The translations under genes and the position numbers were made by a program. Under the pieces are notes generated by a model. That model had not been told where the DNA came from and ran no database searches. It saw only the letters and a list, made by a program, of their open reading frames with translations. Below are positions 172 to 12,414 of a DNA stretch of 12,414 nt, piece by piece. This DNA is from Prolixibacteraceae bacterium (GTDB taxonomy: Bacteria; Bacteroidota; Bacteroidia; Bacteroidales; Prolixibacteraceae), in assembly GCA_014380255.1 (NCBI GenBank), contig JACMKG010000325.1:1-12414 (forward strand). Direction: 5' to 3'. Position 1 is the stretch's first letter. Every line of letters starts with the position of its first letter.

Positions 172-214
172 TAGTAACTCATTAGTAACTCATCTGTAAC
201 CTTTCTGTAACCTC
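171..214 (+). repeat. Four tandem 11-bp units with a GTAAC core
   Basis: Four consecutive 11-bp units are TTAGTAACTCA (171-181), the same again (182-192), TCTGTAACCTT (193-203) and TCTGTAACCTC (204-214). Each contains a heptamer of the form TAGTAAC or CTGTAAC at 11-bp spacing, as in the promoter arrays elsewhere in the window. No -7 element sits at the expected 10-bp spacing on either strand, so a promoter role is uncertain here. Confidence 0.85.
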
Positions 215-250
215 AGATACAGAAAGGTTACAGATGAGTTACTAATGAGT
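177..250. repeat. 33-bp perfect inverted repeat with 8-nt loop
   Basis: Bases 177-209 are the exact reverse complement of 218-250, and 210-217 form the loop. The stem contains three of the 11-bp GTAAC units, so half-sites occur on both strands. A second, shorter inverted repeat (TCAGATAC at 213-220 and GTATCTGA at 249-256) overlaps the right arm and would compete with the main hairpin. No T-tract follows on either strand, so it does not look like an intrinsic terminator. It could be a protein-binding site, a recombination or transposition end, or a scar of template switching during replication. Confidence 0.95.
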
Positions 251-512: not shown

Positions 513-782
513 AAATGCTGATAATCCTATAACTACTTATTTAGAAGCTTGCAATTCAATTTTTACCTGGTTTGTTTTTGAATTTACCAGTAATGTTTTC
601 TCGTTTTTGGTGTACGATGTATAGCTGGTAACCAATTTGCACTGTCCTGCTTTTATATTGCTGATCACAAAATGACCGTCAAAATCGGTATAGGCCTTTT
701 TATCCGAACCTTCCACTTTAATTTCTACGCCTACCAATGCTTCCCCTGAAACTTCATCGATCACGTGTCCGCTTAATGAAAC
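478..782 (-). repeat. Long direct repeat, copy 1 (gene body to terminator)
   Basis: This segment matches 6467-6769 at a constant offset of 5987 bp. It covers the terminator, the short 3' untranslated region and the conserved three-quarters of the small CarboxypepD_reg gene. In a hand comparison of 541-780 I count 8 mismatches, and about 130 bp (roughly 649-781) are identical. Similarity breaks down toward the signal-peptide region and returns in the promoter. Confidence 0.9.
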
Positions 783-932
783 CACTGCGGCACCGGTCTT
801 GGCTTCTGTCTTTATTTCAGAAGTGGTATCATTGGCTCCGGCAAATGCTGCTATTGATACAACTGTTATCATATAACCCAAAATAACCATCGATAGAATT
901 GCTATCAAAATTCCCAGGATTATTTTTTTCAT
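537..932 (-). CDS. Small secreted CarboxypepD_reg-like domain protein, copy 1
   Basis: A 131-residue protein. The N-terminus (about 1-32) is a lysine start followed by a long hydrophobic stretch ending in AAFAG. This is a probable signal peptide, although its hydrophobic core is about 12 residues longer than in the paralogue and could act as a membrane anchor. After a polar linker, residues about 52-129 form one carboxypeptidase-like regulatory beta-sandwich domain with the typical SGHVIDEVSGEALVGVEIKV and TDFDGHFVISNI motifs. The same domain forms the N-terminal extension of TonB receptors, including residues 24-102 of the receptor at 8865-11564. No catalytic residues are visible. It probably acts in the periplasm or at the outer membrane, perhaps by binding a partner protein, but its function is unknown. 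It has its own four-half-site promoter (972-1029) and terminator (478-512), so it is probably monocistronic. It is almost identical to 6524-6883 over the domain. Confidence 0.88.
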   Translation of the reverse strand: MKKIILGILIAILSMVILGYMITVVSIAAFAGANDTTSEIKTEAKTGAAVVSLSGHVIDEVSGEALVGVEIKVEGSDKKAYTDFDGHFVISNIKAGQCKLVTSYTSYTKNEKTLLVNSKTNQVKIELQASK

Positions 933-971: not shown

Positions 972-1029
972 CAAAAGTAAAGTTCACGGATTACAATAGA
1001 ATTAAGCTATCAATAAAGGTTGGTTACAG
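972..1029 (-). promoter_or_regulatory. Pho-box-like promoter of CarboxypepD_reg copy 1
   Basis: On the minus strand, four heptamers are spaced exactly 11 bp apart: CTGTAAC (1023-1029), CTTTATT (1012-1018), GCTTAAT (1001-1007) and TTGTAAT (990-996). A 10-bp spacer and a perfect Bacteroidota -7 element, TACTTTTG (972-979), follow. Transcription would start near 965, about 30 bp before the ATG at 932. The last half-site occupies the -33 region, as in PhoB-activated promoters. Binding by a PhoB/OmpR-type regulator is inferred from this geometry. Confidence 0.75.
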
Positions 1030-1094
1030 ATTCCAGAGAAGGCAAACAGGTATACCGATCAGTAAAGTTTTCGACAACCGTCGTTATTCTACGG

Positions 1095-2258
1095 TTAAAT
1101 AGTAAGAACAATTGGTAATTCTACAATAAAGGTGCTGCCTTCATTTAATTCTGATTCTACCCATACCTTGCCCCCATGCAAATCGACCAATTTTTTGACA
1201 ATAAATAGCCCAAGACCTGTTGAAGATTCACCTGCGGTTGGTTTCGCGCTTAACCGGGTAAATTTGTCAAATATTTTTGACTTGTCGTCCTCACTAAGCC
1301 CCGGACCTTCGTCAGATACTTTAATTATGACCGCTTCATCATTGCACTCGACAGATACCTTAATTTGCGTATCTACTTCTGAGTATTTAATCGCGTTAGA
1401 GATGATATTTTCAAAAATTTCCCTTATTTTAGAAGAATCGCCATTGATTGTAATTGGACTTTCAGAGGATGTAAACCGAATTTTTTGATGTTTAGCTTCC
1501 GCCGATTCCTTAAAGTTGTTGGTGATTTGATTCATTAGTTTGATGAGATCGAATGGGGCAGGATGAATAGTATAATCAACCGCATCTTTAATGGCTGATC
1601 CCAAAAGGTCCTTCACCATATTGTTCATTTGGTCTGAGGTCTCCAGTATGGTTTTACTGTATTCCAGAATTTCTTCTTTATTGGGGTCAGATGAATTGAT
1701 TAAACTGGCAAATCCAAGAATCACACTAATTGGATTTCGCAAGTCATGAGCAACCACTCCTAACACTTCCTTTTTAAACTCGTTGGCTTGACGTAATAAT
1801 TTGGTGGTTTGCAAGTGCACCTTGTTTTCGGCCATCAAAAGCACATAATAGTCCAATAATTTGAAGTCCTCTTCAGCACATTGAACAACAATAGGATCGA
1901 ACCGGTTGCTACTTGGTCGACACAAGGCCATTGTTGAGGCGCTTAACACCGAGATATTTACATCTAAAATCAAACAATGCTCTGAGTCGTTCTCATCAAA
2001 GAAATAATGGGCCGATCGGCGGGAATATACATCAAACATGTATTGTTGACTCATTGCTTCAAAGAAACTTGCTTTCGAGAGCATTCTGAAAAATTTACCT
2101 TGCTTTAAAACAATAAGTCCAGGACAGCTTGGATATTTTGCAAAAATATCATAAGCCGATGATAATTTGTCCTCAGCATCAATTGAAACTGAAACCAAAT
2201 CCAGATCACCCAATGTCGCCTTAATTCCAATTTTAGAAACCATATTTATGAATGTCAT
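1095..2258 (-). CDS. Cytoplasmic sensor histidine kinase
   Basis: A 387-residue soluble kinase with no transmembrane segment. Residues 1 to about 155 form an input region I cannot assign firmly; the part around LIVLKQGKFFRMLSKASFF loosely recalls the CBS-like regions found before some signalling domains. HisKA follows, with the phosphoacceptor histidine at H171 in VVAHDLRNPISVILGF. The HATPase_c domain has an N box around N284-N288 (NIISNAIKYSE), a G1 box DEGPG (316-320) and a G2 box TGLGL (347-351). The kinase therefore looks intact. The start codon overlaps the stop of the upstream hybrid kinase as TAATG, and AGGAAAAG just upstream is a possible ribosome site, so the two are probably translated together. 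No response regulator with a DNA-binding domain is adjacent. The hybrid kinase's receiver domain or a distant regulator is the likely partner. No clear terminator follows, only a weak 6-bp hairpin over the stop codon. Confidence 0.92.
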   Translation of the reverse strand: MTFINMVSKIGIKATLGDLDLVSVSIDAEDKLSSAYDIFAKYPSCPGLIVLKQGKFFRMLSKASFFEAMSQQYMFDVYSRRSAHYFFDENDSEHCLILDVNISVLSASTMALCRPSSNRFDPIVVQCAEEDFKLLDYYVLLMAENKVHLQTTKLLRQANEFKKEVLGVVAHDLRNPISVILGFASLINSSDPNKEEILEYSKTILETSDQMNNMVKDLLGSAIKDAVDYTIHPAPFDLIKLMNQITNNFKESAEAKHQKIRFTSSESPITINGDSSKIREIFENIISNAIKYSEVDTQIKVSVECNDEAVIIKVSDEGPGLSEDDKSKIFDKFTRLSAKPTAGESSTGLGLFIVKKLVDLHGGKVWVESELNEGSTFIVELPIVLTI

Positions 2259-4540
2259 TAAACTTTTCCTTGGATCAGAAAATCGATTTTCTGTACTAAT
2301 TCCATTGATTTGATTGGCTTTGAAATATAATCATCAGCTCCGAAATCCAAACATTTTTCCTTTTCGCCAGTCATTGCATGAGCCGTCTGCATGATTATGG
2401 GGATTTCAGACCTGATCAGTTTGATTTGTTTTGTTGCTTCATAACCGTTCATTACAGGCATGCCCACATCCATTAATATCAGGTCTGCCACATTGTTATC
2501 AAGGATGAAATCAACGGCTTCCATTCCATTTTTCACCCAAAATAATTGCACCTGATAGTTTTTCAGCATGTTTTTAATCAATCTAAAATTGGTTTCCATG
2601 TCCTCTGCAATCAAGATTTTCACTCCTGAGATGTTGATTTGCTTCTGAATAGGGTTGTCCATTTCGATACATGGCTTGATTTTACATTTTTCGTAAGGGA
2701 TTGAAACATAGAAATTCGAACCTATTCCGGGCTTTGAATCCATCCAGATTTCTCCACCAAGCAATTTGATGATTGTTTTTGTAATGTATAATCCAAGGCC
2801 TGTACCCGGGTAGAGCCTTTCCTGGTTTTCACTGGCTTTTCTGAATCTTTCAAAGATAATTTCCTGCTTATCCTTAGGTATTCCAATGCCTGTATCCTGC
2901 ACCATAAAGATGATTTTGGATTTATCCTCTGACAGACTGAATCCAAAACGGATGAATCCTTCATTGGTAAAGGTGACTGCATTGGTTAACAGATTAATGA
3001 GTACTTGTCTTAAGCGATGATGATCGGTTACAATCGTATGTTCAAATAGGTCATTTTCATTCAGATTGATCAGCTTTACATTTTGTTTGCTGTTTTGCTT
3101 TTTAATCTCTTTGACCAACAGTTGTAATTCGGAGGCCATTTTATTCAGGTTCGAACTTGTTTTTTTGATACTGATATGCCCTGCTTCGATTTTGGCAATA
3201 TCAACGATGTCATCAATCAATTTTAAAAGTGATTCGCCATTGGAATTAATGATCGAAATAAATTCATCCCGTTCACCAGTGGCTAAATCAGGGTCCTTAA
3301 GCATCTCGGAAAAGCCAATAATGGCATTCATGGGTGTTCGTATTTCATGCGACATATTTGCCAGGAAGGCTGATTTAAGATTGTCGGATTCTTCCGCTTT
3401 TGTTTTCGCATTTTTAAGTTCATTAATGTAGCTGATTCGTTTTCTTTCACTTTCCTGAAAGTGGCTTTCTGCAAGTTCCCGGGCGTTTTCCTTTTGGTGT
3501 AACTGGTCGATCATTTTATTAAATTCTGCTGACAGTATCCTTACTTCCTTTTGTGAATTATGTATCTGCGGATTTAATGGTTTTTCAAAATTACAGCATA
3601 CCAGCTCTTTAATGGAAGCGGTTAAGTCTAAAAATGGTTTTGCGATCAGCTTCGAAATATATATACTGAATAGGATACCCATAAGGATCAGGATCATGGA
3701 AATTATAATGAAAGCAATCTCCATGTTTTCGAAAATTCTATTTTTTTTACTGATGACCAGTTGTTGGGTTTGAACAAGCATCGTTTCAATTTCCTGATTC
3801 TTTGCTGCAATTTTGGCCATATAGCCTGTCTTATTTCGTATACCAATTTCTAAATCGGTTGCTACTAATTTATTAAAGCAGGAATTGTAATTTGTCAAAA
3901 GGCTCAGCAGACTATCCTTTGTTGTTGAGGGTATGCTGCGGCTCTTCTTGATGTCTTCCTTCATGATTTGAACCAACTGATTGAGCTGAATTACATAGGA
4001 TGAATCATTTCTGATCATGTAATCCTTTTCGTGTCTGCGAAGGCTCAATACCTTAGTCTGATCCAGGGCAGGAAATGTTTCAAGCAAATGCACATTTTTC
4101 CTCATTTGTCCTTCCAGTCCAAAATCTTTGAATCCCCTGACTTTGATAGCCTTCACCATTTGTTCAAAGAGATCTTTTTGAACCAATTGTTGAGAATGTA
4201 TGGCTAACAGCAATCTGTCAGTTTCAAAATCATTTTCTTTACAAATTCGCAACAACCTCACATATTTGGAATCCAGGCTATCCTCCTTGATTTTCAAATC
4301 ATCAAGATATTTACTCTGATTGGCTTGGAAGTATTCAGAATTGCGTGTATCGTAATTGATGAAGTCAGATTGGATTTGCCAGAAATGGAGCATATCAAGA
4401 TAATAGGAATCTAAATAATTGAGGGCATATAAAACCTTTTCTTTCCTATTTAAGAAATATTTACAGACGGGGAAAACTGTGCAAAGGAACAACAAAGCAA
4501 ATCCAAGAAAACCGGCAATTAGATGATTTTTGAATGACAT
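2258..4540 (-). CDS. Membrane hybrid histidine kinase with receiver domain
   Basis: A 760-residue hybrid sensor kinase. I chose the ATG at 4540 because GGAG lies 5 nt before it and the protein then begins MSFKNHLIAGF; a TTG at 4567 would add nine residues and sits almost on the predicted -7 element. Numbering from the ATG: first membrane helix about 6-30, then an all-helical periplasmic sensor of about 240 residues whose LRRHEKDYMIRND motif recalls helical-bundle (HBM/4HB-type) sensors, second membrane helix about 275-298, HAMP about 298-350 and a coiled coil. HisKA has H398 in LANMSHEIRTPMNAIIGF. HATPase_c has N516, DTGIGI (549-554) and GTGLGL (579-584). The C-terminal receiver has the acceptor D691 in LILMDVGMP, T719 and K741 in ISKP. 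The ligand is unknown. It is the first gene of the operon, and the half-site array at 4564-4621 suggests regulation along with the phosphate-type genes. Confidence 0.93.
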   Translation of the reverse strand: MSFKNHLIAGFLGFALLFLCTVFPVCKYFLNRKEKVLYALNYLDSYYLDMLHFWQIQSDFINYDTRNSEYFQANQSKYLDDLKIKEDSLDSKYVRLLRICKENDFETDRLLLAIHSQQLVQKDLFEQMVKAIKVRGFKDFGLEGQMRKNVHLLETFPALDQTKVLSLRRHEKDYMIRNDSSYVIQLNQLVQIMKEDIKKSRSIPSTTKDSLLSLLTNYNSCFNKLVATDLEIGIRNKTGYMAKIAAKNQEIETMLVQTQQLVISKKNRIFENMEIAFIIISMILILMGILFSIYISKLIAKPFLDLTASIKELVCCNFEKPLNPQIHNSQKEVRILSAEFNKMIDQLHQKENARELAESHFQESERKRISYINELKNAKTKAEESDNLKSAFLANMSHEIRTPMNAIIGFSEMLKDPDLATGERDEFISIINSNGESLLKLIDDIVDIAKIEAGHISIKKTSSNLNKMASELQLLVKEIKKQNSKQNVKLINLNENDLFEHTIVTDHHRLRQVLINLLTNAVTFTNEGFIRFGFSLSEDKSKIIFMVQDTGIGIPKDKQEIIFERFRKASENQERLYPGTGLGLYITKTIIKLLGGEIWMDSKPGIGSNFYVSIPYEKCKIKPCIEMDNPIQKQINISGVKILIAEDMETNFRLIKNMLKNYQVQLFWVKNGMEAVDFILDNNVADLILMDVGMPVMNGYEATKQIKLIRSEIPIIMQTAHAMTGEKEKCLDFGADDYISKPIKSMELVQKIDFLIQGKV

Positions 4541-4563
4541 AATCTCCAACAAAATATTTGGCA

Positions 4564-4621
4564 GCAAGTTAGAAATTAGGGATCACCAAAGAATAACAAA
4601 ACGATTAAGGAACCATTAAAG
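4564..4621 (-). promoter_or_regulatory. Pho-box-like promoter of the kinase operon
   Basis: Minus-strand heptamers at 11-bp spacing are CTTTAAT (4615-4621), CCTTAAT (4604-4610), TTGTTAT (4593-4599) and a weak TGGTGAT (4582-4588). A 10-bp spacer and TAACTTGC (4564-4571), an imperfect -7 element, follow. The first three half-sites are good and the last is degenerate. Orientation points to the kinases, but the site lies within 110 bp of the divergent gene at 4672, so it may affect both. Confidence 0.5.
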
Positions 4622-4671
4622 CTTTATTCGTATATTTATATAAACATTTCAATTTATTAAATAAAAGAGGC

Positions 4672-5472
4672 ATGAAAAACAATCAGAATTATGCTGCTAA
4701 AATAGATGGTTATGCTAAAATTATCAGCTTATTATCCAGCAACGATCAAATCCTGAAAAGGGTTTCAAGGTTTCAGCTTGCTACCGATCAACTGATTTCA
4801 AATCAGAAAAAATTGATGGTTTTATACCCTCAATTGAGTAAAGATATCACTGCTACTGAAAAAGCCAAGAATAAACGGCGGGCAGTGTTAATAGATAAAA
4901 ATTTGCCTGTTATCAGGATTTTACAGGCTTTTGCCTTTGACAAAAAGAAAAAGAACTTACAGAACCGATTGGATTATCTCACCTTAGACTATCTTAAAAA
5001 CTGTTCGGACAAAGAATTAATGAAAATTTCAAAAAAGACATGGCAGCTGGCTACCAAGTATTCCGGTTATGCAACTACGTATGTCGATAAAATAAAATCA
5101 ACAATAAATCCGGATGAATCAAAAGCTATCACTAAGTTTAAGAACCAATACGGCTTAAAGCCTGAAATGATTAAAGCCATTGAAAATTCAAATATCAAGT
5201 TTATTGAATCAGTGCTGTTGTATCAGCAGGGGATGAAGGAAAAAGAAAAGGTAGCTATGCAAATGAAAAAAGTTAATAAGCAAACAAGTAACCTACTTTC
5301 CAAAAAAATTGATCGGTTTGTACTCCTGTTCGAGAAAGAAAGTCCGCACTTTTACCTAGAATATCGCACATTAAGAGAAAAGTCTGCAGTTGAAGAATCA
5401 AATGAAGATTCAATACAGGTAGCTAAACCTGAAAAGGAATTGATTGCAGAGGAGCATAATGAAATGGCATAA
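4672..5472 (+). CDS. Uncharacterised lysine-rich helical protein
   Basis: A 266-residue protein without signal peptide or membrane segment, predicted almost entirely alpha-helical. Residues 1 to about 235 are rich in lysine and arginine, for example KAKNKRR near 64-70 and DKKKKN near 90-95. The last 35 residues form an acidic, disordered-looking tail. The opening (NYAAKIDGYAKIISLL) and the HFYLEYRTLR segment near the end recall a widespread Bacteroidota family of hypothetical proteins of similar length; I know of no assigned function. AGAGG lies immediately before the ATG with unusually short spacing, but no other in-frame start is close. A weak -7-like TATATTTA lies at 4631-4638. It diverges from the kinases and is followed after 127 bp by the CHAD gene. 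A role in binding polyanions such as polyphosphate is a guess from charge and neighbourhood only. Confidence 0.85.
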   Translation: MKNNQNYAAKIDGYAKIISLLSSNDQILKRVSRFQLATDQLISNQKKLMVLYPQLSKDITATEKAKNKRRAVLIDKNLPVIRILQAFAFDKKKKNLQNRLDYLTLDYLKNCSDKELMKISKKTWQLATKYSGYATTYVDKIKSTINPDESKAITKFKNQYGLKPEMIKAIENSNIKFIESVLLYQQGMKEKEKVAMQMKKVNKQTSNLLSKKIDRFVLLFEKESPHFYLEYRTLREKSAVEESNEDSIQVAKPEKELIAEEHNEMA

Positions 5473-5599
5473 CCAGATATTAAAAAAAACTTAAACATTT
5501 TCATATTCGAATTCTAATTGCCAAAAAACTTATTTGGGTATTGATGGTTTCGGTATAAAAGGATTCGTAAAAGATGTTTGTCAGTAATCAAAATTGAAA

Positions 5600-6433
5600 A
5601 TGAAATTAAAGAATAATCACATTTTAGACCAAATTGGGCAAGTTATTAGTCTCGATTTAATGCTTGAAGAAGATATTCATACGATTCATTCAATTTCAGA
5701 AAATGATATTCAAAGTATTAACAAAAGCGTTCATAAATTACGAAAATCGCTGAAATCTATTTCAGCGATTTTGTTTTTATATGAATTTCAAATTGATCAA
5801 TCTCAATATTTGAACTGGAAATCAGAAATAAAATCCCTTTCAAAACAATTTTCTGAAGTAAGGGAATATTTTATTCACCTTCAAACTTTTAAAAAGGTTG
5901 AAGATAAACTAAAGGATATTGACAAAAGCGACCTGTTTGAGATACGAACCCAATTTGAATCGGAATACGATCAGATTGTGCAGCGAGTCACAGTTAGGGA
6001 AAAAACAATTCTGAAAGGGAAAGAAGCCATCCTTAAAATGTGCCAAGAGATCCAAAACCGGCATATTCATTCTGAGCTTAAATTATTGGAGAGAAGGCTT
6101 TTAAAAAGCAATCAGAAAGCACAAAAACAATTTAAAAAGTTAAGCCTGAATTCTTCCCATAACGAATTTCATGAATTCAGAAAATCATGCAAGCGTTTTT
6201 ATCTACAGCATATAGTTTATAATCGATTAGGATTTGAGAAAACTTCCAAACAGAATAAAAAACTCTATCAGCTCACCGAATATTTGGGAAAAGAACATGA
6301 TTTGAATTTGCTGTATGAATTTTTGAGCATTCATTTTCACGAATTACCACCCTTATCACAATCATTTTTCATGCATAAAATAAGAAAGTTAAGGAAAAAT
6401 GTTTTTATGCTCTATCCTGAAGTCAATTACTGA
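5600..6433 (+). CDS. CHAD domain protein (probable polyphosphate-binding)
   Basis: A 277-residue soluble protein consisting essentially of one CHAD (conserved histidine alpha-helical) domain. I use the ATG at 5600 rather than the TTG at 5594. The first helical repeat shows the hallmark VHKLRKSLKSISAIL with H45 and basic residues. The second shows EFHEFRKSCKRFYL with H191, followed by LGKEHDLNLL (H233, D234). These match the paired conserved histidine and arginine/lysine helices that line the basic pore binding inorganic polyphosphate in characterised CHAD proteins. No fused CYTH/triphosphatase domain is present, so catalysis is not expected. It probably binds or localises polyphosphate in the cytoplasm. 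It lies downstream of the helical protein at 4672 and converges on the gene at 6524. A terminator-like hairpin lies inside its 5' coding region (5743-5778). The gap upstream holds no clear half-site array and only a weak -7-like GATGTTTG at 5573-5580. Confidence 0.9.
   Translation: MKLKNNHILDQIGQVISLDLMLEEDIHTIHSISENDIQSINKSVHKLRKSLKSISAILFLYEFQIDQSQYLNWKSEIKSLSKQFSEVREYFIHLQTFKKVEDKLKDIDKSDLFEIRTQFESEYDQIVQRVTVREKTILKGKEAILKMCQEIQNRHIHSELKLLERRLLKSNQKAQKQFKKLSLNSSHNEFHEFRKSCKRFYLQHIVYNRLGFEKTSKQNKKLYQLTEYLGKEHDLNLLYEFLSIHFHELPPLSQSFFMHKIRKLRKNVFMLYPEVNY
5743..5778 (+). other. Terminator-like hairpin inside the CHAD coding sequence
   Basis: AAAATCGCTGAAAT (5743-5756) and ATTTCAGCGATTTT (5759-5772) are perfect reverse complements separated by 2 nt. 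The T-tract continues as TTTTGTTTTT (5769-5778). On the coding strand this has the form of an intrinsic terminator about 145 bp into the gene, although the stem is AT-rich. It encodes the conserved first CHAD helix, so it may be coincidental, or it may cause early termination or slow translation. Confidence 0.55.
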
Positions 6434-6466
6434 TTCTTTTTAAAACAAATTATAATCAGAATTAAC

Positions 6467-6499
6467 AAAAAAAGCTTCCCCCGAAATCCGGAAGAAGCC
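6467..6499 (-). terminator. Intrinsic terminator of the second CarboxypepD_reg gene
   Basis: On the minus strand, GGCTTCTTCCG pairs with CGGGGGAAGCT over a 5-nt loop (6473-6499), using some G-T pairs, and a run of seven T (6467-6473) follows. It is the counterpart of 478-512 at the same distance from the stop codon. Stem bases differ between the copies while pairing is kept. Confidence 0.88.
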
Positions 6500-6769
6500 A
6501 AGTGTTAATAACCATATAACTACTTATCTTGAAGCTTGCAATTCTATTTTTACCTGGTTGGTTTTTGAATTTACCAGTAAGGTTTTCTCGTTTTTGTTGT
6601 ACGATGTATAGCTGGTAACCAGTTTGCACTGTCCGGCTTTTATATTGCTGATCACAAAATGACCGTCAAAATCGGTATAGGCCTTTTTATCCGAACCTTC
6701 CACTTTAATTTCTACGCCTACCAATGCTTCCCCTGAAACTTCATCGATCACGTGTCCGCTTAATGAAAT
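6467..6769 (-). repeat. Long direct repeat, copy 2 (gene body to terminator)
   Basis: This segment matches 478-782 in the same orientation. The two copies lie about 6 kb apart and bracket the kinases, the helical protein and the CHAD gene. The roughly 130-bp identical core could serve as a substrate for homologous recombination. Confidence 0.9.
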
Positions 6770-6883
6770 CACTGCTGCTTCGGTTTTGGTTTCTGCTTTA
6801 ATTGCTGATTTGGTGTTTGTCTTTCCAGCAAAAGCGGATGTAGACACCAAGGCTATCAAGATTGCAAAGAATACTTTTTTCAT
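6524..6883 (-). CDS. Small secreted CarboxypepD_reg-like domain protein, copy 2
   Basis: A 119-residue paralogue of the gene at 537-932. Residues 1-19 form an ordinary signal peptide with a signal peptidase I site after AFA (STSAFA/GKTN). A short polar linker and one CarboxypepD_reg-like domain at about 40-117 follow. From VSLSGHV to the C-terminus it differs from copy 1 at only two residues (N for T in the TSY-KNEK segment, and a final R for K). This copy is probably exported to the periplasm. No enzymatic motif is present. Such single domains resemble the N-terminal extension of TonB receptors, so a helper or decoy role at a receptor is possible but unproven. It has its own half-site promoter (6915-6972) and terminator (6467-6499). 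It converges with the CHAD gene and lies downstream of the MORN gene on the same strand. Confidence 0.9.
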   Translation of the reverse strand: MKKVFFAILIALVSTSAFAGKTNTKSAIKAETKTEAAVISLSGHVIDEVSGEALVGVEIKVEGSDKKAYTDFDGHFVISNIKAGQCKLVTSYTSYNKNEKTLLVNSKTNQVKIELQASR

Positions 6884-6914
6884 GATGGTATGATTTTTTT
6901 CTGTTTTACATGAC

Positions 6915-6972
6915 CAAAAGTACAGCCTGTTGATTACAGCTCAATTAAGCTTCCATTAAAGTTTTGTTACAG
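6915..6972 (-). promoter_or_regulatory. Pho-box-like promoter of CarboxypepD_reg copy 2
   Basis: Minus-strand heptamers CTGTAAC (6966-6972), CTTTAAT (6955-6961), GCTTAAT (6944-6950) and CTGTAAT (6933-6939) are spaced exactly 11 bp apart. A 10-bp spacer leads to a perfect -7 element TACTTTTG (6915-6922). Spacing and elements match the copy-1 promoter while the spacer bases differ, which suggests the half-sites are under selection. Confidence 0.78.
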
Positions 6973-6990
6973 ATAGTAAGTGATTTCCAG

Positions 6991-7011
6991 GTTCAAAGTT
7001 CAAAGTTTCAA
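6991..7011. repeat. Three 7-bp tandem units in an intergenic region
   Basis: GTTCAAA (6991-6997), GTTCAAA (6998-7004) and GTTTCAA (7005-7011) form a short tandem array. The sequence after it (7015-7068) has a simple, repetitive texture of ACTG-type words. No hairpin-plus-T-run terminator for the MORN gene is seen. It may be a dispersed intergenic repeat of this genome. Confidence 0.6.
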
Positions 7012-7069
7012 GTTTGGCTTGCTGAGAATTGAGACTGATCACTGAAACTGGCTACTGTTACTGGCCACC

Positions 7070-7543
7070 CTATTTCTCCTTCTCGGGATATTCACGCTCA
7101 CTGACAATTTCTCCTTCTTTGCCAAAGTTGCGCCAGATGCCTACCTTTTCTCCCATATTGTAATGCAGCTCGTATAAAAGGTTGCCATTGGCATCCCAGA
7201 TCATCCAGGTACCATGCTTCAGCCCATCCTTGTAATTGGCCAAACCGATCAATACTTTCTGATCGTTGTAGGTTATCCAGGAACCGTGCATCAGGTTATT
7301 TTTGTATGATCTGACTTCATTCAACTGACCGTTTTCGAAATAAACATTGGCTGTACCATTCTTTAACCCGTTTATAAGGTTCAGCTCAATTTTAATCTTA
7401 CCATTGGGAAAATGGGTAACATACTTTCCTGTATAAGCAACGCTGTCGGCGTAATAGATACCGTTAATCTCTTTCAGTTCCTGTGCGTTGCTTACAAATG
7501 ACAGCAAGCTGATTAGTACGAATAATAAACCAAGTTTTTTCAT
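7070..7543 (-). CDS. Secreted MORN-repeat protein
   Basis: A 157-residue protein with a clear signal peptide (residues 1-20, cleavage after SNA, before QE). The mature part is a run of about five MORN-variant repeats of 22-24 residues (about 38-59, 62-83, 86-108, 110-132 and 134-155). They show the pattern aromatic-x-NG-x(n)-Y-x-NG-x-(K/H)-G, as in YFENGQL, IWDANGNLL and DGLKHGTW. Similar proteins are often labelled YwqK-family antitoxin by similarity alone; nothing here supports a toxin-antitoxin role. The repeats form an extended beta-hairpin sheet likely used for binding in the periplasm or at the outer membrane. It lies downstream of the terminator at 7595-7637, so it is probably transcribed separately from the receptor operon. 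I see no half-site array upstream of it. Its substrate or partner is unknown. Confidence 0.85.
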   Translation of the reverse strand: MKKLGLLFVLISLLSFVSNAQELKEINGIYYADSVAYTGKYVTHFPNGKIKIELNLINGLKNGTANVYFENGQLNEVRSYKNNLMHGSWITYNDQKVLIGLANYKDGLKHGTWMIWDANGNLLYELHYNMGEKVGIWRNFGKEGEIVSEREYPEKEK

Positions 7544-7594
7544 GGCGATCTTTTCTTTTCTGACTTATATTTTGATCAGTCGATTAAATGTTTT

Positions 7595-7637
7595 AAAAAG
7601 CTTCAACTACCCCGAGTCCTCGGGGCGAGTTGAAGCT
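7595..7637 (-). terminator. Strong intrinsic terminator of the receptor-lipoprotein operon
   Basis: AGCTTCAACT pairs with AGTTGAAGCT, and inside this CCCCGAG pairs with CTCGGGG across a 2-nt gap, with a small asymmetric bulge (7599-7637). On the minus strand five T (7595-7599) follow. It lies about 60 bp beyond the stop codon of the lipoprotein gene and before the MORN gene. The GC-rich core is unusual in this AT-rich window. Confidence 0.9.
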
Positions 7638-7699
7638 CTGATTCTATTCTATTTGTAGGTTTTTTATTTTGAAATCAATTTAACAAATAAAGGTATTTA

Positions 7700-8821
7700 T
7701 TAAAATTGATAACCAGTCCAGGCGAATACGGATGTATTTGCACCTGTATTTGCAGCGTTTGCGGTAACAGTAGTGCTGATACCATTAAGTAGATTCGTTG
7801 AAATAACGCCATCCACTTTGTAAGCGATCACAGTACCGGCTGCTGCGTCTCCTTTGCTGTCTTTTAAATCAACAATGTCAGTGCACGTACCACCTTTTAC
7901 AAGAATATTTGTAATATTAGCTTTAGCACCGCGACGAACTTTAATAGCATCATGCATTACGAATGTTGATTTATTATGCACAGTAATATTCTTCATAATA
8001 AAATCAGATTGTTTTACATCATTTGGTCCAAGACCATCGAAGTTTCCATCAAGCTCGAGTCCTCGTGGATCTGCCTCTGAACTGGTGAAATCGGCTTGCC
8101 AAACACCGTACGCGTTGTCTAATGTACCTTTCCATCCCTGAGTTGCATCAAACATGTCGTCTTCAGAACCTACTACCAGTAAATTCTTTACACTAACAGA
8201 TCCACCAAAAAATTCAATCCCATCATCATTGGATTCTTTAATGAAGATGTTTTCGATTTTAGTACCACTCCCAACACCGTTAAGGGTTAGACCGTTATGC
8301 TCAATATTAGCTGATGATTTAGCACCGGTATATTCAATAATCAAGTACATTAATTCACCCGAGTTGTCGGTATCAACATCACCGCCATAAGTGACAGCAG
8401 GGTTAATCTCCGTAGTACCTGAAGTTGTAACACCAGTAGGTCCGGAAAGGAATGCTTTACCGTTTATGATTAAACCACCCCAGTCGCCAACTTTAGGAGT
8501 TGCTTCAATGGAAGTTATTTTTACAGGTTTTTCAGCAGTTCCATTTACATAAATTTTACCACCCATTTCAACAAGAATGTACTTGTTAAAACCTTTTGTA
8601 GCTTTGATAACTGTACCAGCGGGAATCCTGAGTACACCACCATTTACTACTTGTAAAGATCCTACCAACTTGTATTCAATGGTTGCATCGAGCGTTACAT
8701 CAGTAGTGATATCACCGCTTAACTCGTTGTTTACCTGAGGGGTCGTTACTGTCGGATCTTCATCATCGCACGAAACGAAAACTATTGCCAGAATGGCCAG
8801 ACTTAAAAGTAAATTTTTCAT
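7700..8821 (-). CDS. Surface-type beta-helix lipoprotein paired with the TonB receptor
   Basis: A 373-residue lipoprotein. The signal sequence ends in the lipobox VFVSC with the lipidated C18, followed directly by DDEDP. Such an acidic run after the cysteine resembles the lipoprotein export signal that sends Bacteroidota lipoproteins to the cell surface. Residues about 45-340 form short repeating strands typical of a right-handed parallel beta-helix, with motifs GGVLRIPAGTVIKA (61-74), GDWGGLIINGKA (112-123), NDDGIEFFGG (198-207) and SEDDMFDATQGW (219-230). The acidic NDDG and EDDM clusters could bind calcium or another cation. No catalytic motif is evident and no type IX secretion C-terminal domain is seen. 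It starts 43 bp after the TonB receptor stop codon on the same strand and ends at a strong terminator, so the two form an operon. A role as a substrate-capturing partner of the receptor, comparable to SusD for SusC but of unrelated fold, is inferred. Confidence 0.85.
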   Translation of the reverse strand: MKNLLLSLAILAIVFVSCDDEDPTVTTPQVNNELSGDITTDVTLDATIEYKLVGSLQVVNGGVLRIPAGTVIKATKGFNKYILVEMGGKIYVNGTAEKPVKITSIEATPKVGDWGGLIINGKAFLSGPTGVTTSGTTEINPAVTYGGDVDTDNSGELMYLIIEYTGAKSSANIEHNGLTLNGVGSGTKIENIFIKESNDDGIEFFGGSVSVKNLLVVGSEDDMFDATQGWKGTLDNAYGVWQADFTSSEADPRGLELDGNFDGLGPNDVKQSDFIMKNITVHNKSTFVMHDAIKVRRGAKANITNILVKGGTCTDIVDLKDSKGDAAAGTVIAYKVDGVISTNLLNGISTTVTANAANTGANTSVFAWTGYQF

Positions 8822-8864
8822 TTTGAATTGTTTTAAAATTATTTAATTGCTGATATATAATACA

Positions 8865-11564
8865 TTAAAGTTTATAGGTTATTCCTAAATCAAAGGACAC
8901 ACCTTTTTTATAGCTATGTGTTACCACAGAAGGGACACTGCCATCAGCACCTTCTCTTGTAAGATTGAATTCGGGGTTTAATAAATTCATGGCTTTAAAA
9001 CCAATTCCCAAGTGTTTGTTAATTTTAATTGTATTTATAAAATCAAGTGTTGTTAAACTTTCTTCAATAAGGTTATTATAACCACGTGTGCCAATGGTGT
9101 GTACTTTATCGCTCAAATAGTTTACTACAAATGCGGAATTCATGGAAAACTTTCCTGATACCATGTTATAGGTAAGATCTGCATTAAATATATAGGGGGC
9201 GGCACCTTCCAAAGTCGATGTGGTGTTTTGTACAAACCATTGGGGGTCGAGTTCAATTTTTGAATAGATATAAGAGGCGTTGATACCAAGATTAATTGTA
9301 TGGTTTTGAGCAAATGACAGAAGTTCTTTCCTCAGCTCCGCCTCAACTCCGGCAGCGATGGCATGATCTGAAACATTGTCAAAGGTCTTTATCCCCGCAG
9401 AATTTCCTTGATCAACCCGGGCGATGGGGTTTAAAATGTATTTGTAAAAACCATTGAGCGAAAACATCTCGTTATCGGATAGGTAATGATCCCATTTAAT
9501 GTCAACATTGTAATTGTTGGAAATCTCCAGCTCAGGATTACCATTTTCAAGTCCATCAAAACCTTGGTAAACAAATGGAGAAATTTCTTTATCCTGTGGC
9601 AACGTGTTGGTGCGACTAGCGCCCATTCTTAAATGATTCTTATCATTTAAAATATATTTCACATTAAGACTTGGCGAGATAAAAACACCCTTAAACGTAT
9701 CATTACCAATATTAGCACCCCTGTTTACCTCATAATTTATTTTGGTATAGACATAATCGCCCCTTAGGCCGACATTCAGGATAAGCGAATTGTTTAACTG
9801 ATATATCAGGTCAATGTATGAACCATGCATGTTACGCACAACATCATAGGTATCATTAAAATATTCCAAATTAAAATTGCTGAGTGATAAAGCATCCTGA
9901 TTAATGTAAGCATCCAGCGTTACATTGTTTCTGTCAAAAATTGGTGATATGACATTCGGATTCCAGGTGTGGTTATAAATTTGAGCAGAAAACTCTTTGT
10001 TGCTGATCCTCGAATCGTATCCAATTTCAATATAAGATCTATTTTCAGGTTCTTCTGATAGCTTGTACTGAATATTGAATTTGGGAATAAGGGCCGTTTC
10101 GGTTATTTCACTATTGAATCTTTCGTTTCTATTTTCTGCCCGGGCCAGTTGAACCTTCCCACCTCCTAATGAAGGGAAGCGAAAAATCCTGCGGTCGGGT
10201 TCCATCCCTGTTATGCGGTTGAGTGATACGCCAAAATTATATTTTACCCTTTTAGACCAAATTCCCTGAAGGATCAGCTGGTTTATAAAGATTGAATTAT
10301 CATTGATTTGCTGACGTCGAACAAGTCCTTCGGAGTTAAATTCATCCGCTATCTGAAATAGCTCGGAGTGCTTACCATATAGATCGGCATAATAGGCTGA
10401 TCCGGAGTGTATGTATAACGAATTGTAAGCCAATTTAATATTATCGATATTCAATTCAATACCACCCATTGCCATTATTGACGATTTTTTCTCGAAACGC
10501 TTGTATGACATATCCATAAAAGGATTTGCGGCATCAGTGGCTGTAATCTCCCGCAATACCCCTTGTTCGTATGTGTTATCGTTGCTCATTGCCCCGGCCA
10601 GAAAAAAGCGGTGCTTATTTAAAAACCTCTTCCCCCCTGAAACATTAATATTTAAGTTATAAGGGTTGTTAACTCTTTTCGAATCGAGTGAGGTGTTAAA
10701 AGAATAATCAGTTAAGTTATTGTAAGGCCCGTCTGATGCGTTGGAATATCCGAAGCTGGTCATCCCATCAGGAAGAAATAAATCTACACCGGCAGTCTGA
10801 CTGTTTAATGAGGAGGAAACCCCAATATTAAATTCACCATCGCTATTTAGTTCTTTCGACTTAATATCAATTAATGCGCCTCCAACATCACCGTTCATCG
10901 AAGCCGAGAATACCTTACTGACCGTAACAGTCTGAATCATATCGTTAGTAAAAAAATCAAGTGATATGTTCTTGTATTCAGGATCCTCAGAAGGTAAAAT
11001 AAAACCATTCAGTGTCGTTGTATTGTAGCGATCGCCCAAACCACGCACGAAAACATTCTTAACTCCTTGCTGTTTTGAAATACCTGAAATTTTTGTGACC
11101 GCACCTTCAGCATCGCTCACTCCCTTTCTGGATAATTCCTGTGCTCCAACAGTTTGAGTTGACATTAAGGAATTTTTCTGTTCCATCATTAATATAGTTT
11201 CCGATTCTGGGTTTCTTCTAGCTGAAACGGTTACTTCATCAACTGAAACGGAGGTACCAGATAATTGAAAACTGACTTCGATAGTCTCCCCGTTTTTGAC
11301 CGTTATCTCTTTCTCAATCTTATCGTATGAAATATACGAACAAACAAGGATGTGATTTCCTAAAGGCATATTGTTTAAGGAAAAATTACCATCGAGATCA
11401 GACATTGTTCCTTTCGTTGTTCCCTCAATGTAAATGGTTGCCCCTACCAGGGTCTCTTTAGTGATGGCATCGGTAATCGTCCCTTTGATTACACCATTTT
11501 GGGCCATGCCTGCAACCGAAATAATTACCCAGATAGCAATCAAAAATAATCTCTTAATTTCCAT
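8865..11564 (-). CDS. TonB-dependent outer-membrane receptor with CarboxypepD_reg extension
   Basis: An 899-residue receptor. A signal peptide spans 1-21 (cleavage near GMA/QN). Residues about 24-102 are a CarboxypepD_reg-like domain (GTITDAITKETLVGATIYIE, SDLDGNFSLNNMPLG). A TonB-box-like VDEVTVSA lies at 108-115. The plug (about 125-237) has GVKNVFVRGLGDRYNTTTLNG and NGDVGGALIDIKS. The rest, to the terminal DLGITYKL, is a 22-stranded-type beta-barrel. It lacks typical SusC length and has no SusD neighbour, so it is a non-SusC receptor. The substrate is not visible in the sequence. The half-site array upstream and the divergent Porin_O_P gene suggest import of phosphate or a phosphorylated compound across the outer membrane using TonB energy. 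It is the first gene of an operon with the beta-helix lipoprotein 43 bp downstream. The N-terminal domain is clearly related to the two small proteins at 537-932 and 6524-6883. Confidence 0.93.
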   Translation of the reverse strand: MEIKRLFLIAIWVIISVAGMAQNGVIKGTITDAITKETLVGATIYIEGTTKGTMSDLDGNFSLNNMPLGNHILVCSYISYDKIEKEITVKNGETIEVSFQLSGTSVSVDEVTVSARRNPESETILMMEQKNSLMSTQTVGAQELSRKGVSDAEGAVTKISGISKQQGVKNVFVRGLGDRYNTTTLNGFILPSEDPEYKNISLDFFTNDMIQTVTVSKVFSASMNGDVGGALIDIKSKELNSDGEFNIGVSSSLNSQTAGVDLFLPDGMTSFGYSNASDGPYNNLTDYSFNTSLDSKRVNNPYNLNINVSGGKRFLNKHRFFLAGAMSNDNTYEQGVLREITATDAANPFMDMSYKRFEKKSSIMAMGGIELNIDNIKLAYNSLYIHSGSAYYADLYGKHSELFQIADEFNSEGLVRRQQINDNSIFINQLILQGIWSKRVKYNFGVSLNRITGMEPDRRIFRFPSLGGGKVQLARAENRNERFNSEITETALIPKFNIQYKLSEEPENRSYIEIGYDSRISNKEFSAQIYNHTWNPNVISPIFDRNNVTLDAYINQDALSLSNFNLEYFNDTYDVVRNMHGSYIDLIYQLNNSLILNVGLRGDYVYTKINYEVNRGANIGNDTFKGVFISPSLNVKYILNDKNHLRMGASRTNTLPQDKEISPFVYQGFDGLENGNPELEISNNYNVDIKWDHYLSDNEMFSLNGFYKYILNPIARVDQGNSAGIKTFDNVSDHAIAAGVEAELRKELLSFAQNHTINLGINASYIYSKIELDPQWFVQNTTSTLEGAAPYIFNADLTYNMVSGKFSMNSAFVVNYLSDKVHTIGTRGYNNLIEESLTTLDFINTIKINKHLGIGFKAMNLLNPEFNLTREGADGSVPSVVTHSYKKGVSFDLGITYKL

Positions 11565-11636
11565 TCAAAAACGCATTTAATAATAGTTGAAATTTAAGCC
11601 ATTCAATCCATTCGGATGGGGCGATAAATTATGGCG

Positions 11637-11694
11637 CTAAGGAATGGGTATTTAATTACATAACGATTAATAATCATTTACACAACGATTACAT
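11637..11694 (-). promoter_or_regulatory. Pho-box-like promoter of the TonB receptor operon
   Basis: Minus-strand heptamers ATGTAAT (11688-11694), GTGTAAA (11677-11683), TATTAAT (11666-11672) and ATGTAAT (11655-11661) are spaced 11 bp apart. After 10 bp comes TTCCTTAG (11637-11644), a weak match to TAnnTTTG. The half-sites are clear but the -7 element is poor, which would fit a promoter dependent on an activator. The predicted leader to the ATG is about 70 nt. Confidence 0.65.
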
Positions 11695-11753
11695 TTCAAG
11701 AATAAGCATGTAATGTGCATAGGATGTAATCAATGCTTGATAAATAACAGGGA

Positions 11754-11811
11754 GTGTAATGAATAATTAATAATTGTTTAATCGTTTTGTAATAATATTA
11801 GAAAACCTTTG
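11754..11811 (+). promoter_or_regulatory. Pho-box-like promoter of the porin
   Basis: Plus-strand heptamers GTGTAAT (11754-11760), AATTAAT (11765-11771), GTTTAAT (11776-11782) and TTGTAAT (11787-11793) are spaced 11 bp apart. A 10-bp spacer and AACCTTTG (11804-11811), one base from a perfect -7 element, follow. Transcription would start near 11818, about 20 nt before the ATG. Two further ATGTAAT words (11708-11714 and 11724-11730) lie upstream, out of the 11-bp phase. Confidence 0.7.
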
Positions 11812-11839: not shown

Positions 11840-12414
11840 ATGAGAAAATTTACTTTAATTGTCGCATTGCTGATTTCAGCATTTGTTTTTAATGTAAACG
11901 CCCAGGAGGTTTCTGTAAAGGAACAAATTACCGAGGTGAATGACAAGGTGGATGGCTTAATTGAGCGTTTAGCAGTTGCAGAAACGGACTTATCAAAGTT
12001 AACTAAGATAAAAGTATCAGGTTACATGCAGGCCCAGTACCAGTATTTTGAAAGTAAGGCCGTACAGCCCACCAATTACTTTTCACTAAGACGTGCCCGG
12101 GTAAAGTTTACCTATGAGGCGGCTGATGGAGTAAAATTTGTGCTTACTCCCGAATTTGTGCCAGGAAACCTTTCTGTAAAAGATGCCTATGTAGTTTTAA
12201 ACGACCATTGGTCAAAAGCGTTCAGTTTATGGGCCGGTAAGTTTAATCGACCCAATTATGAAGTAGAATACTCCTCCAGCGGCCGTGAAGTTGCTGAAAG
12301 GTCAACTGTTATCCGTACCTTATATCCAGGAGAACGCGCTATTGGAGCGAAATTGGAGTATAATCCGGTGAATGTACCCATTCATTTACAGGTAGCTGTA
12401 CTGAACGGACCCGA
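11840..12414 (+). CDS. Porin of the Porin_O_P (phosphate-selective porin) family, partial
   Basis: The first 191 codons of a porin cut by the right edge. Residues 1-21 are a signal peptide ending NVNA/Q. A short coiled coil (about 25-54, EVNDKVDGLIERLAVAE) follows, as in trimeric OprP/OprO-type porins. Beta-strands then start with IKVSGYMQAQYQYF. The family signature RRARVKFTYEAADG, then DAYVVLNDHW, WAGKFNRPNYEVEYSSS and YPGERAIGAKLEY matches the Porin_O_P pattern. The protein forms an outer-membrane channel; in Pseudomonas the OprP and OprO members conduct phosphate and polyphosphate and are PhoB-regulated. Specificity cannot be read from this fragment, because many Bacteroidota members are unassigned. 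It is transcribed divergently from the TonB receptor and has its own half-site promoter (11754-11811). Confidence 0.88.
   Translation, partial: MRKFTLIVALLISAFVFNVNAQEVSVKEQITEVNDKVDGLIERLAVAETDLSKLTKIKVSGYMQAQYQYFESKAVQPTNYFSLRRARVKFTYEAADGVKFVLTPEFVPGNLSVKDAYVVLNDHWSKAFSLWAGKFNRPNYEVEYSSSGREVAERSTVIRTLYPGERAIGAKLEYNPVNVPIHLQVAVLNGP

Follow-up and report, generated by a model that had tools for sequence, protein, structure and literature searches.

A four-half-site operator locked to the -7 promoter element in Bacteroidota, a candidate Pho box

Genes and repeat arrays of the window

The window, which denotes the whole stretch of DNA that was analysed (12,414 nucleotides, G+C content 37%), carries the following genes.

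537..932, minus strand: CPD1, small carboxypeptidase-regulatory-domain (CPD) protein (PF13715), behind array 1
1095..2258, minus strand: second histidine kinase (Pfam), after the hybrid kinase
2258..4567, minus strand: hybrid histidine kinase with HisKA, HATPase and receiver domains (Pfam), behind array 2
4672-5472: 266-aa protein, no Pfam match
5594-6433: CHAD-domain protein (Pfam)
6524..6883, minus strand: CPD2, small CPD protein and paralogue of CPD1 (Pfam; 84 of the last 90 residues identical)
7070..7543, minus strand: MORN-repeat protein (PF07661)
7700..8821, minus strand: 373-aa lipoprotein, judged from its N-terminus (no Pfam match), downstream of the TonB receptor gene
8865..11564, minus strand: TonB-dependent outer-membrane receptor (Pfam)
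11840..12412, plus strand: phosphate-selective porin O/P family protein (PF07396, E 3.6e-5, above cut-off), running off the window

No closer relative of the window emerged among the 393 genomes of one order that were searched, the best identity being 44%. The lipoprotein and MORN genes are probably co-transcribed from the TonB promoter, and ATG at 4540 is the likelier start of the hybrid kinase. The N-terminus of CPD1 suggests that the protein is secreted. Besides the 84 identical residues among their last 90, the CPD1 and CPD2 genes share 258 of their last 273 bases and each has its own box; by sequence they look like recent duplicates. CHAD is a polyphosphate-binding domain. It was found in 7 of 22 relatives (G006, G007, G009-G013), none of these Pontibacter, Petrimonas or Bacteroides, and no plus-strand box was detected in the window at ≤5 mismatches near the CHAD gene or the gene before it.

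An earlier note on this DNA had described five arrays, each with four heptamers at 11-bp intervals followed by 10 bp and a -7 octamer. All five lie where the note had placed them, and this geometry was directly observed in every one. A sixth array and an overlapping palindrome complete the list of features.

172..211 (span 172-229), plus strand: sixth array, no -7 element, half-sites TAGTAAC/TAGTAAC/CTGTAAC/CTGTAAC
177..250: perfect 33-bp inverted repeat with an 8-bp loop, overlapping the sixth array
990..1029 (972-1029 including the -7), minus strand: array 1, half-sites CTGTAAC/CTTTATT/GCTTAAT/TTGTAAT
972..979, minus strand: -7 element of array 1, TACTTTTG, 10 bp past the last half-site
4582..4621 (4564-4621 including the -7), minus strand: array 2, doubtful, degenerate half-sites CTTTAAT/CCTTAAT/TTGTTAT/TGGTGAT
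4564-4571, minus strand: -7 element of array 2, TAACTTGC, poor
6933..6972 (6915-6972 including the -7), minus strand: array 3, half-sites CTGTAAC/CTTTAAT/GCTTAAT/CTGTAAT
6915..6922, minus strand: -7 element of array 3, TACTTTTG
11655..11694 (11637-11694 including the -7), minus strand: array 4, TonB promoter, half-sites ATGTAAT/GTGTAAA/TATTAAT/ATGTAAT
11637..11644, minus strand: -7 element of array 4, TTCCTTAG, weak
11754..11793 (11754-11811 including the -7), plus strand: array 5, porin promoter, half-sites GTGTAAT/AATTAAT/GTTTAAT/TTGTAAT
11804..11811, plus strand: -7 element of array 5, AACCTTTG

The note was also correct in recognizing two perfect -7 elements (TACTTTTG, arrays 1 and 3) and one AACCTTTG (array 5); the octamers of arrays 2 and 4 are poor.

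The arrays were assessed by scanning both strands of the whole window for four 11-bp-spaced heptamers, using a heptamer set that was informed by the arrays themselves. The five top-scoring matches were exactly the five arrays, with scores of 23, 23, 22, 22, and 21 of 24, and 200 dinucleotide shuffles yielded a mean of 0.005 matches at a score of 21 and none higher. At scores of ≥20, eight matches were found with a spacing of 11 bp and none with spacings of 8-10 or 12-15. As the heptamer set was drawn partly from the arrays, two further checks were performed. The first used an independent weight matrix constructed from the TonB promoters of 44 relatives, which were picked from 80 by a fit rule, and containing no window sequence. 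Array 3 scored 28.0, array 5 22.2, array 4 19.4, and array 1 10.8 compared to a maximum of 5.5 in 200 shuffles, and array 2 scored -3.9, within the range of the same 200 shuffles and so unsupported by this matrix. The second check counted mismatches to a consensus of 25 specified positions: none for arrays 3 and 5, one for array 1, three for array 4, and four for array 2. In 500 shuffles there were no matches at ≤2 mismatches, 0.004 per window at three, and 0.034 at four. Thus, the matrix scores and mismatch counts establish arrays 1, 3, 4, and 5 as solid and array 2 as marginal, which makes the two kinases doubtful members of any regulon that the arrays define. Promoters of the sigma-70 type showed no excess (44 found versus a shuffle mean of 44.4).

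Gene neighbourhood and boxes in relatives

Homologues of the TonB receptor numbered 2855 at E ≤0.001 among 7995 candidates scored, and the best 80 of 239 confirmed loci on the genome contigs of relatives (L001-L080) were taken as the locus set. Homologues of the receptor, lipoprotein, MORN, and CPD genes hold the same order in relatives as in the window, and in many of these loci the set adjoins pst, phoU, PiT, or phoB-type genes. The lipoprotein homologue was present in 79 of the 80 loci, either as the next gene behind that of the receptor or no more than ~1.3 kb away, and the MORN homologue in 34. Matches to CPD2 occurred in 33 loci, although some correspond to the receptor's own CPD domain, which left 20 separate CPD genes. 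Among the same 80 loci, homologues of pstC, pstA, and phoU of Petrimonas (L149) are each present in 16, PiT homologues in 16, and PhoB-type regulators in 10; the pst names were given by likeness, except for pstS and phoU, which were checked separately. One locus (L053) has the order porin, PhoB-type gene, TonB, lipoprotein, MORN, CPD; at a threshold of ≤3 mismatches its PhoB-type, TonB, and CPD genes are each preceded by a box and its porin gene is not. Another (L016) runs from a 328-aa gene through pstS, pstC, pstA, pstB, phoU, and a PhoB-type gene to TonB, lipoprotein, MORN, and CPD genes. By comparison with these loci, the window resembles one half of a phosphate gene cluster, the half that serves the outer membrane.

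Regions spanning 450 bp 5′ of orthologous genes and 60 bp inside them were examined for the box at ≤2 mismatches, with the reversed pattern as control. The box preceded 43 of 80 TonB orthologues, the other 37 lacking one at this threshold, versus 0 of 80 for the control, and the reversed pattern gave no match in any orthologue group. The box also preceded 14 of 20 separate CPD genes (absent from six), all six Pontibacter porin O/P genes, and three of four homologues of the 328-aa gene. At the same threshold in the 80 loci no box was evident for 11 of 13 PiT genes and eight of nine PhoB-type genes examined, nor directly 5′ of any of three pstS genes (L016, L018, and L019); in L016 and L019 the box precedes the 328-329-aa gene that sits ahead of pstS. 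Lipoprotein (0 of 79) and MORN (0 of 34) genes had no box of their own at ≤2 mismatches, and the lipoprotein group reached 10 of 79 once three mismatches were allowed. The regulon claimed in the earlier note is on the whole well supported: the porin, TonB receptor, and CPD promoters are sustained by boxes 5′ of the orthologues in relatives, whereas the kinases are doubtful in view of the marginal array 2 and the lipoprotein gene has no box of its own.

The genome scan for phosphate genes that the note had proposed was run on 14 relatives at ≤2 mismatches and produced 55 matches versus one for the reversed pattern, bearing out the expectation with boxes 5′ of pstS in five genomes, of PiT genes in three, and of PhoB-type genes in four. 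The matches lie before 11 TonB orthologues, five pstS genes, four PhoB-type regulators, three PiT permeases, four CPD genes, five porin O/P genes, and one metallophosphoesterase gene (33 in total). The scan pattern was drawn from TonB promoters, so that the TonB matches are expected by construction and the other genes constitute the real test, the pstS, PiT, and PhoB-type matches being independent of the pattern. Two further matches precede 328-329-aa genes ahead of pstS in G007 and G010, whose products were taken to be porin-like despite having no Pfam match. In Pontibacter, four are at the receptor promoter but on its other strand, and two, with no frame assigned, are in the region of the porin. 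The remaining 14 comprise one DUF5690 gene, three unassigned matches, and ten before genes without an evident phosphate role (four SulP, three SusC-like receptors, two MarC, and one DUF218). Matches of the latter kind may reflect chance, another regulator, or real sites.

Families in the 14 genomes were assigned by family search of representatives and by likeness for the rest, and the receptor of G016 was identified from where it sits in its locus. The search of four Pontibacter genomes yielded no pstS match. The Bacteroides salyersiae regulator (L162) passes the cut-off of the NCBIfam PhoB family NF053854 (379.8 versus 270 bits); for the Draconibacterium and Maribellus sediminis regulators PhoB is the best family, below the cut-off (215.1 and 216.5, respectively), and the B. 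xylanisolvens PhoB-type regulator was named by likeness. Representatives from L149 and L150 pass the cut-off of the PstS family TIGR00975. The closest solved structure to the Petrimonas regulator encoded after phoU is mycobacterial RegX3, and the receiver domain of E. coli PhoB also was matched.

A scan of 395 genomes of the phylum at ≤1 mismatch returned 104 matches in 66 genomes versus three control matches; as only 66 of the 395 genomes match, the strict consensus is not universal. Twenty-nine new loci among the 104 matches include, by likeness, one PhoB-type gene, one PiT gene, two PstS-like genes (46 and 22% identity), two lipoprotein homologues, several TonB-type genes, and four SulP-like genes, the others being unassigned or without a frame; L227 was set aside, and no reading frame was obtained for L205 and L218. 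In ten pst loci of relatives, the best match to a matrix that included the four good window arrays lay before a pst gene in nine; in the tenth (L142) it lay in a very similar segment to which no frame was assigned. Scores were low in five Bacteroides loci (-2.3 to 1.2) and 27.1 to 44.5 in the other five, pstC having been named by likeness. That the box is conserved in relatives, and that it precedes pst, PiT, and phoB-type genes there, are direct observations. Separately, the Bacteroides pst intergenic regions (L141-L145) show up to six degenerate 11-bp units ahead of the inferred pstC.

Four units in register with the -7 element

The number of half-sites was addressed in nine genomes with an anchor consisting solely of the last two half-sites and the -7 element. 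The anchor gave 22 matches (control nine) that represent 21 distinct promoters. Both upstream half-sites were perfect in 15 of the 21, all of which precede CPD, TonB, PstS, PiT, or 328-329-aa genes. A sixteenth promoter, before a PhoB-type gene, has four of five matches in each upstream half-site, and the other five promoters are without such an upstream pair. No fifth or further half-site was found in three registers further upstream of the 15 promoters, and the count of four was thereby observed directly. More than four half-sites as a rule was rejected, as none of the 15 anchored promoters has them; the Bacteroides pst regions possibly have six.

When the -7 element was ignored, 48 perfect four-unit arrays with 11-bp spacing were recovered in the 1.61 Mb of L001-L080, compared with five at a spacing of 8 and none at 9, 10, or 12-15. 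In 44 of the 48, TTTG occurs at the exact position expected for a -7 octamer that follows at 10 bp; every other distance has ≤1. The loci are mutually related and so the 48 arrays are not independent events. Among the new findings the strongest is that this operator has four units and is locked to the Bacteroidota promoter.

The arrays were compared with the features by which a Pho box is recognized. They consist of direct repeats in an 11-bp register (7 bp plus 4 bp), the last repeat lies at a fixed distance upstream of the -10/-7 element, and in relatives they are positioned before pst, phoB, and other phosphate genes. They do not follow the E. coli consensus CTGTCAT and instead read TGTAAY or TTAAY. 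As the PhoB consensus varies between species (PMC4415409), this mismatch does not define the kind of operator across phyla.

A Pho-box reading and its alternatives

Taken together, the arrays are very probably Bacteroidota Pho boxes through which low phosphate, acting via PhoB and four half-sites, turns on an outer-membrane scavenging set. In this scheme the identity of the binder (PhoB) and of the signal (phosphate), what the proteins do, and the recruitment of polymerase are inferred. When phosphate is scarce, PhoB of the OmpR family, in its phosphorylated form, would bind the four direct half-sites, with one [G/T]TAA[C/T] per 11-bp turn, and by analogy with E. coli PhoB four protomers would be arranged head to tail on the same side of the helix. 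With 10 bp between it and TAnnTTTG downstream, the last half-site would occupy the place of the upstream promoter element, and PhoB bound there could recruit RNA polymerase. The set switched on in this way would comprise the porin, the TonB receptor with the lipoprotein and MORN protein, and the two small CPD proteins.

In E. coli the last unit of the Pho box lies close to the -10 element. TAnnTTTG is the Bacteroidota -7 element, and its E. coli counterpart is TATAAT. The E. coli PHO box consists of two 11-nt units, 7-bp direct repeats with 4-bp spacers, that are bound in tandem head to tail (PMC4415409). The arrays share with it the 11-nt direct units upstream of pst and other phosphate genes (PMC4415409), but differ in three respects: the half-site is CTGTCAT in E. 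coli and TGTAAY or TTAAY here; two units form the E. coli box whereas four are present in 15 of the 21 anchored promoters; and the operator is coupled to TATAAT in E. coli and to the Bacteroidota -7 element TAnnTTTG here. On this reading the Bacteroidota operator belongs to an established type, in a form specific to its phylum. The PhoP operator of Bacillus subtilis has four TTAACA-like repeats at about 11 bp, although in another phylum and with another promoter type. TTAACA-type units, which are close to this PhoP repeat, occur in many genomes of the phylum scan.

PhoB in Bacteroidota is already known (PMC3547664; PMC8115612). The phoBR cluster of Flavobacterium johnsoniae, PUSIV, encodes an OprP porin, PhoR, PhoB, a TonB receptor, and a lipoprotein (PMC8115612), and is like the window set in domains and order. 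Phosphate depletion strongly induces the TonB receptor Fjoh_0545 and the lipoprotein Fjoh_0546, and also induces PhoB (Fjoh_0544), with no induction of the OprP porin Fjoh_0542 beside phoBR (PMC8115612). The main text of that paper names no promoter motif, and it places Bacteroidota among the mobilisers of phosphorus in the rhizosphere (PMC8115612). PhoB of Bacteroides fragilis, a member of the same phylum, binds the pstC promoter in EMSA (PMC3547664); no box sequence is given in the accessible text of that report, and the pst arrays of the Bacteroides relatives examined are degenerate, with perhaps up to six units. Predicted Pho boxes near plcP have been noted in marine bacteria including flavobacteria, with no consensus stated in the accessible text (PMC4796936). 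A literature search aimed at a Bacteroidota Pho box found none defined among the matches listed from open-licence PMC texts.

Whether a single standard operator serves the phylum, with exactly four PhoB half-sites 10 bp from the -7 element, occupied by two dimers or none, and predicting the Pho regulon across much of Bacteroidota, is in our estimation evenly balanced. Given the near-zero background (104 versus three matches in 395 genomes), such a rule would make Pho regulons readable directly from genomic and metagenomic sequence, and lipoproteins, TonB receptors, MORN proteins, and CPD proteins would become candidates for phosphate-related roles. It also provides a clear way of asking how many activator units are needed per promoter. 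A rival to the four-unit rule is that two PhoB molecules suffice, as in one E. coli Pho box which has two 11-nt units (PMC4415409), and that the upstream half-sites form an accessory second box. This is rather unlikely: the search did not demand the upstream pair, yet 15 of the 21 promoters it found carry both in perfect form.

There is a slight chance that the arrays are bound by a different OmpR-family regulator, for example one for envelope stress that is possibly served by the kinases present in the window. SulP permeases in four Pontibacter genomes, and SulP-like genes elsewhere, are preceded by four 11-bp TTTTAAT-type arrays phased to the -7 in the same way, and therefore the 11-bp geometry is not unique to phosphate genes. 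Nevertheless, GTAAC-type boxes precede pstS, PiT, and PhoB-type genes in several genomes, and the gene set of the window adjoins pst, phoU, or phoB-type genes in relatives, both of which speak against a regulator other than PhoB. That the arrays are chance periodicity of A+T-rich promoter DNA is scarcely credible: the G+C content is 37% and array 2 alone is within reach of chance, but for arrays 1, 3, 4, and 5 the shuffles and the boxes before orthologues in relatives refute this origin, and chance or A+T periodicity was ruled out by the shuffles, the spacing, and the reversed-pattern controls.

The SulP-linked TTTTAAT-type arrays were observed in L164, assigned by Pfam, and by likeness in L122-L124, L211-L213, and L215. 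Perhaps they represent a second OmpR-family regulon with the same geometry.

The sixth array of the window, which was absent from the earlier note, achieves the best half-site-only matrix score in the window (29.2) with three mismatches to the consensus. It is the only plus-strand array in the window and L001-L080 that is accompanied by palindrome arms of ≥12 bp, and the RNA fold of positions 166-262 has a predicted energy of -56.8 kcal/mol. The palindrome array (172-250) is a possible titration site, terminator, or mobile palindrome; as a guess, this promoterless array might serve as a PhoB titration or insulator site.
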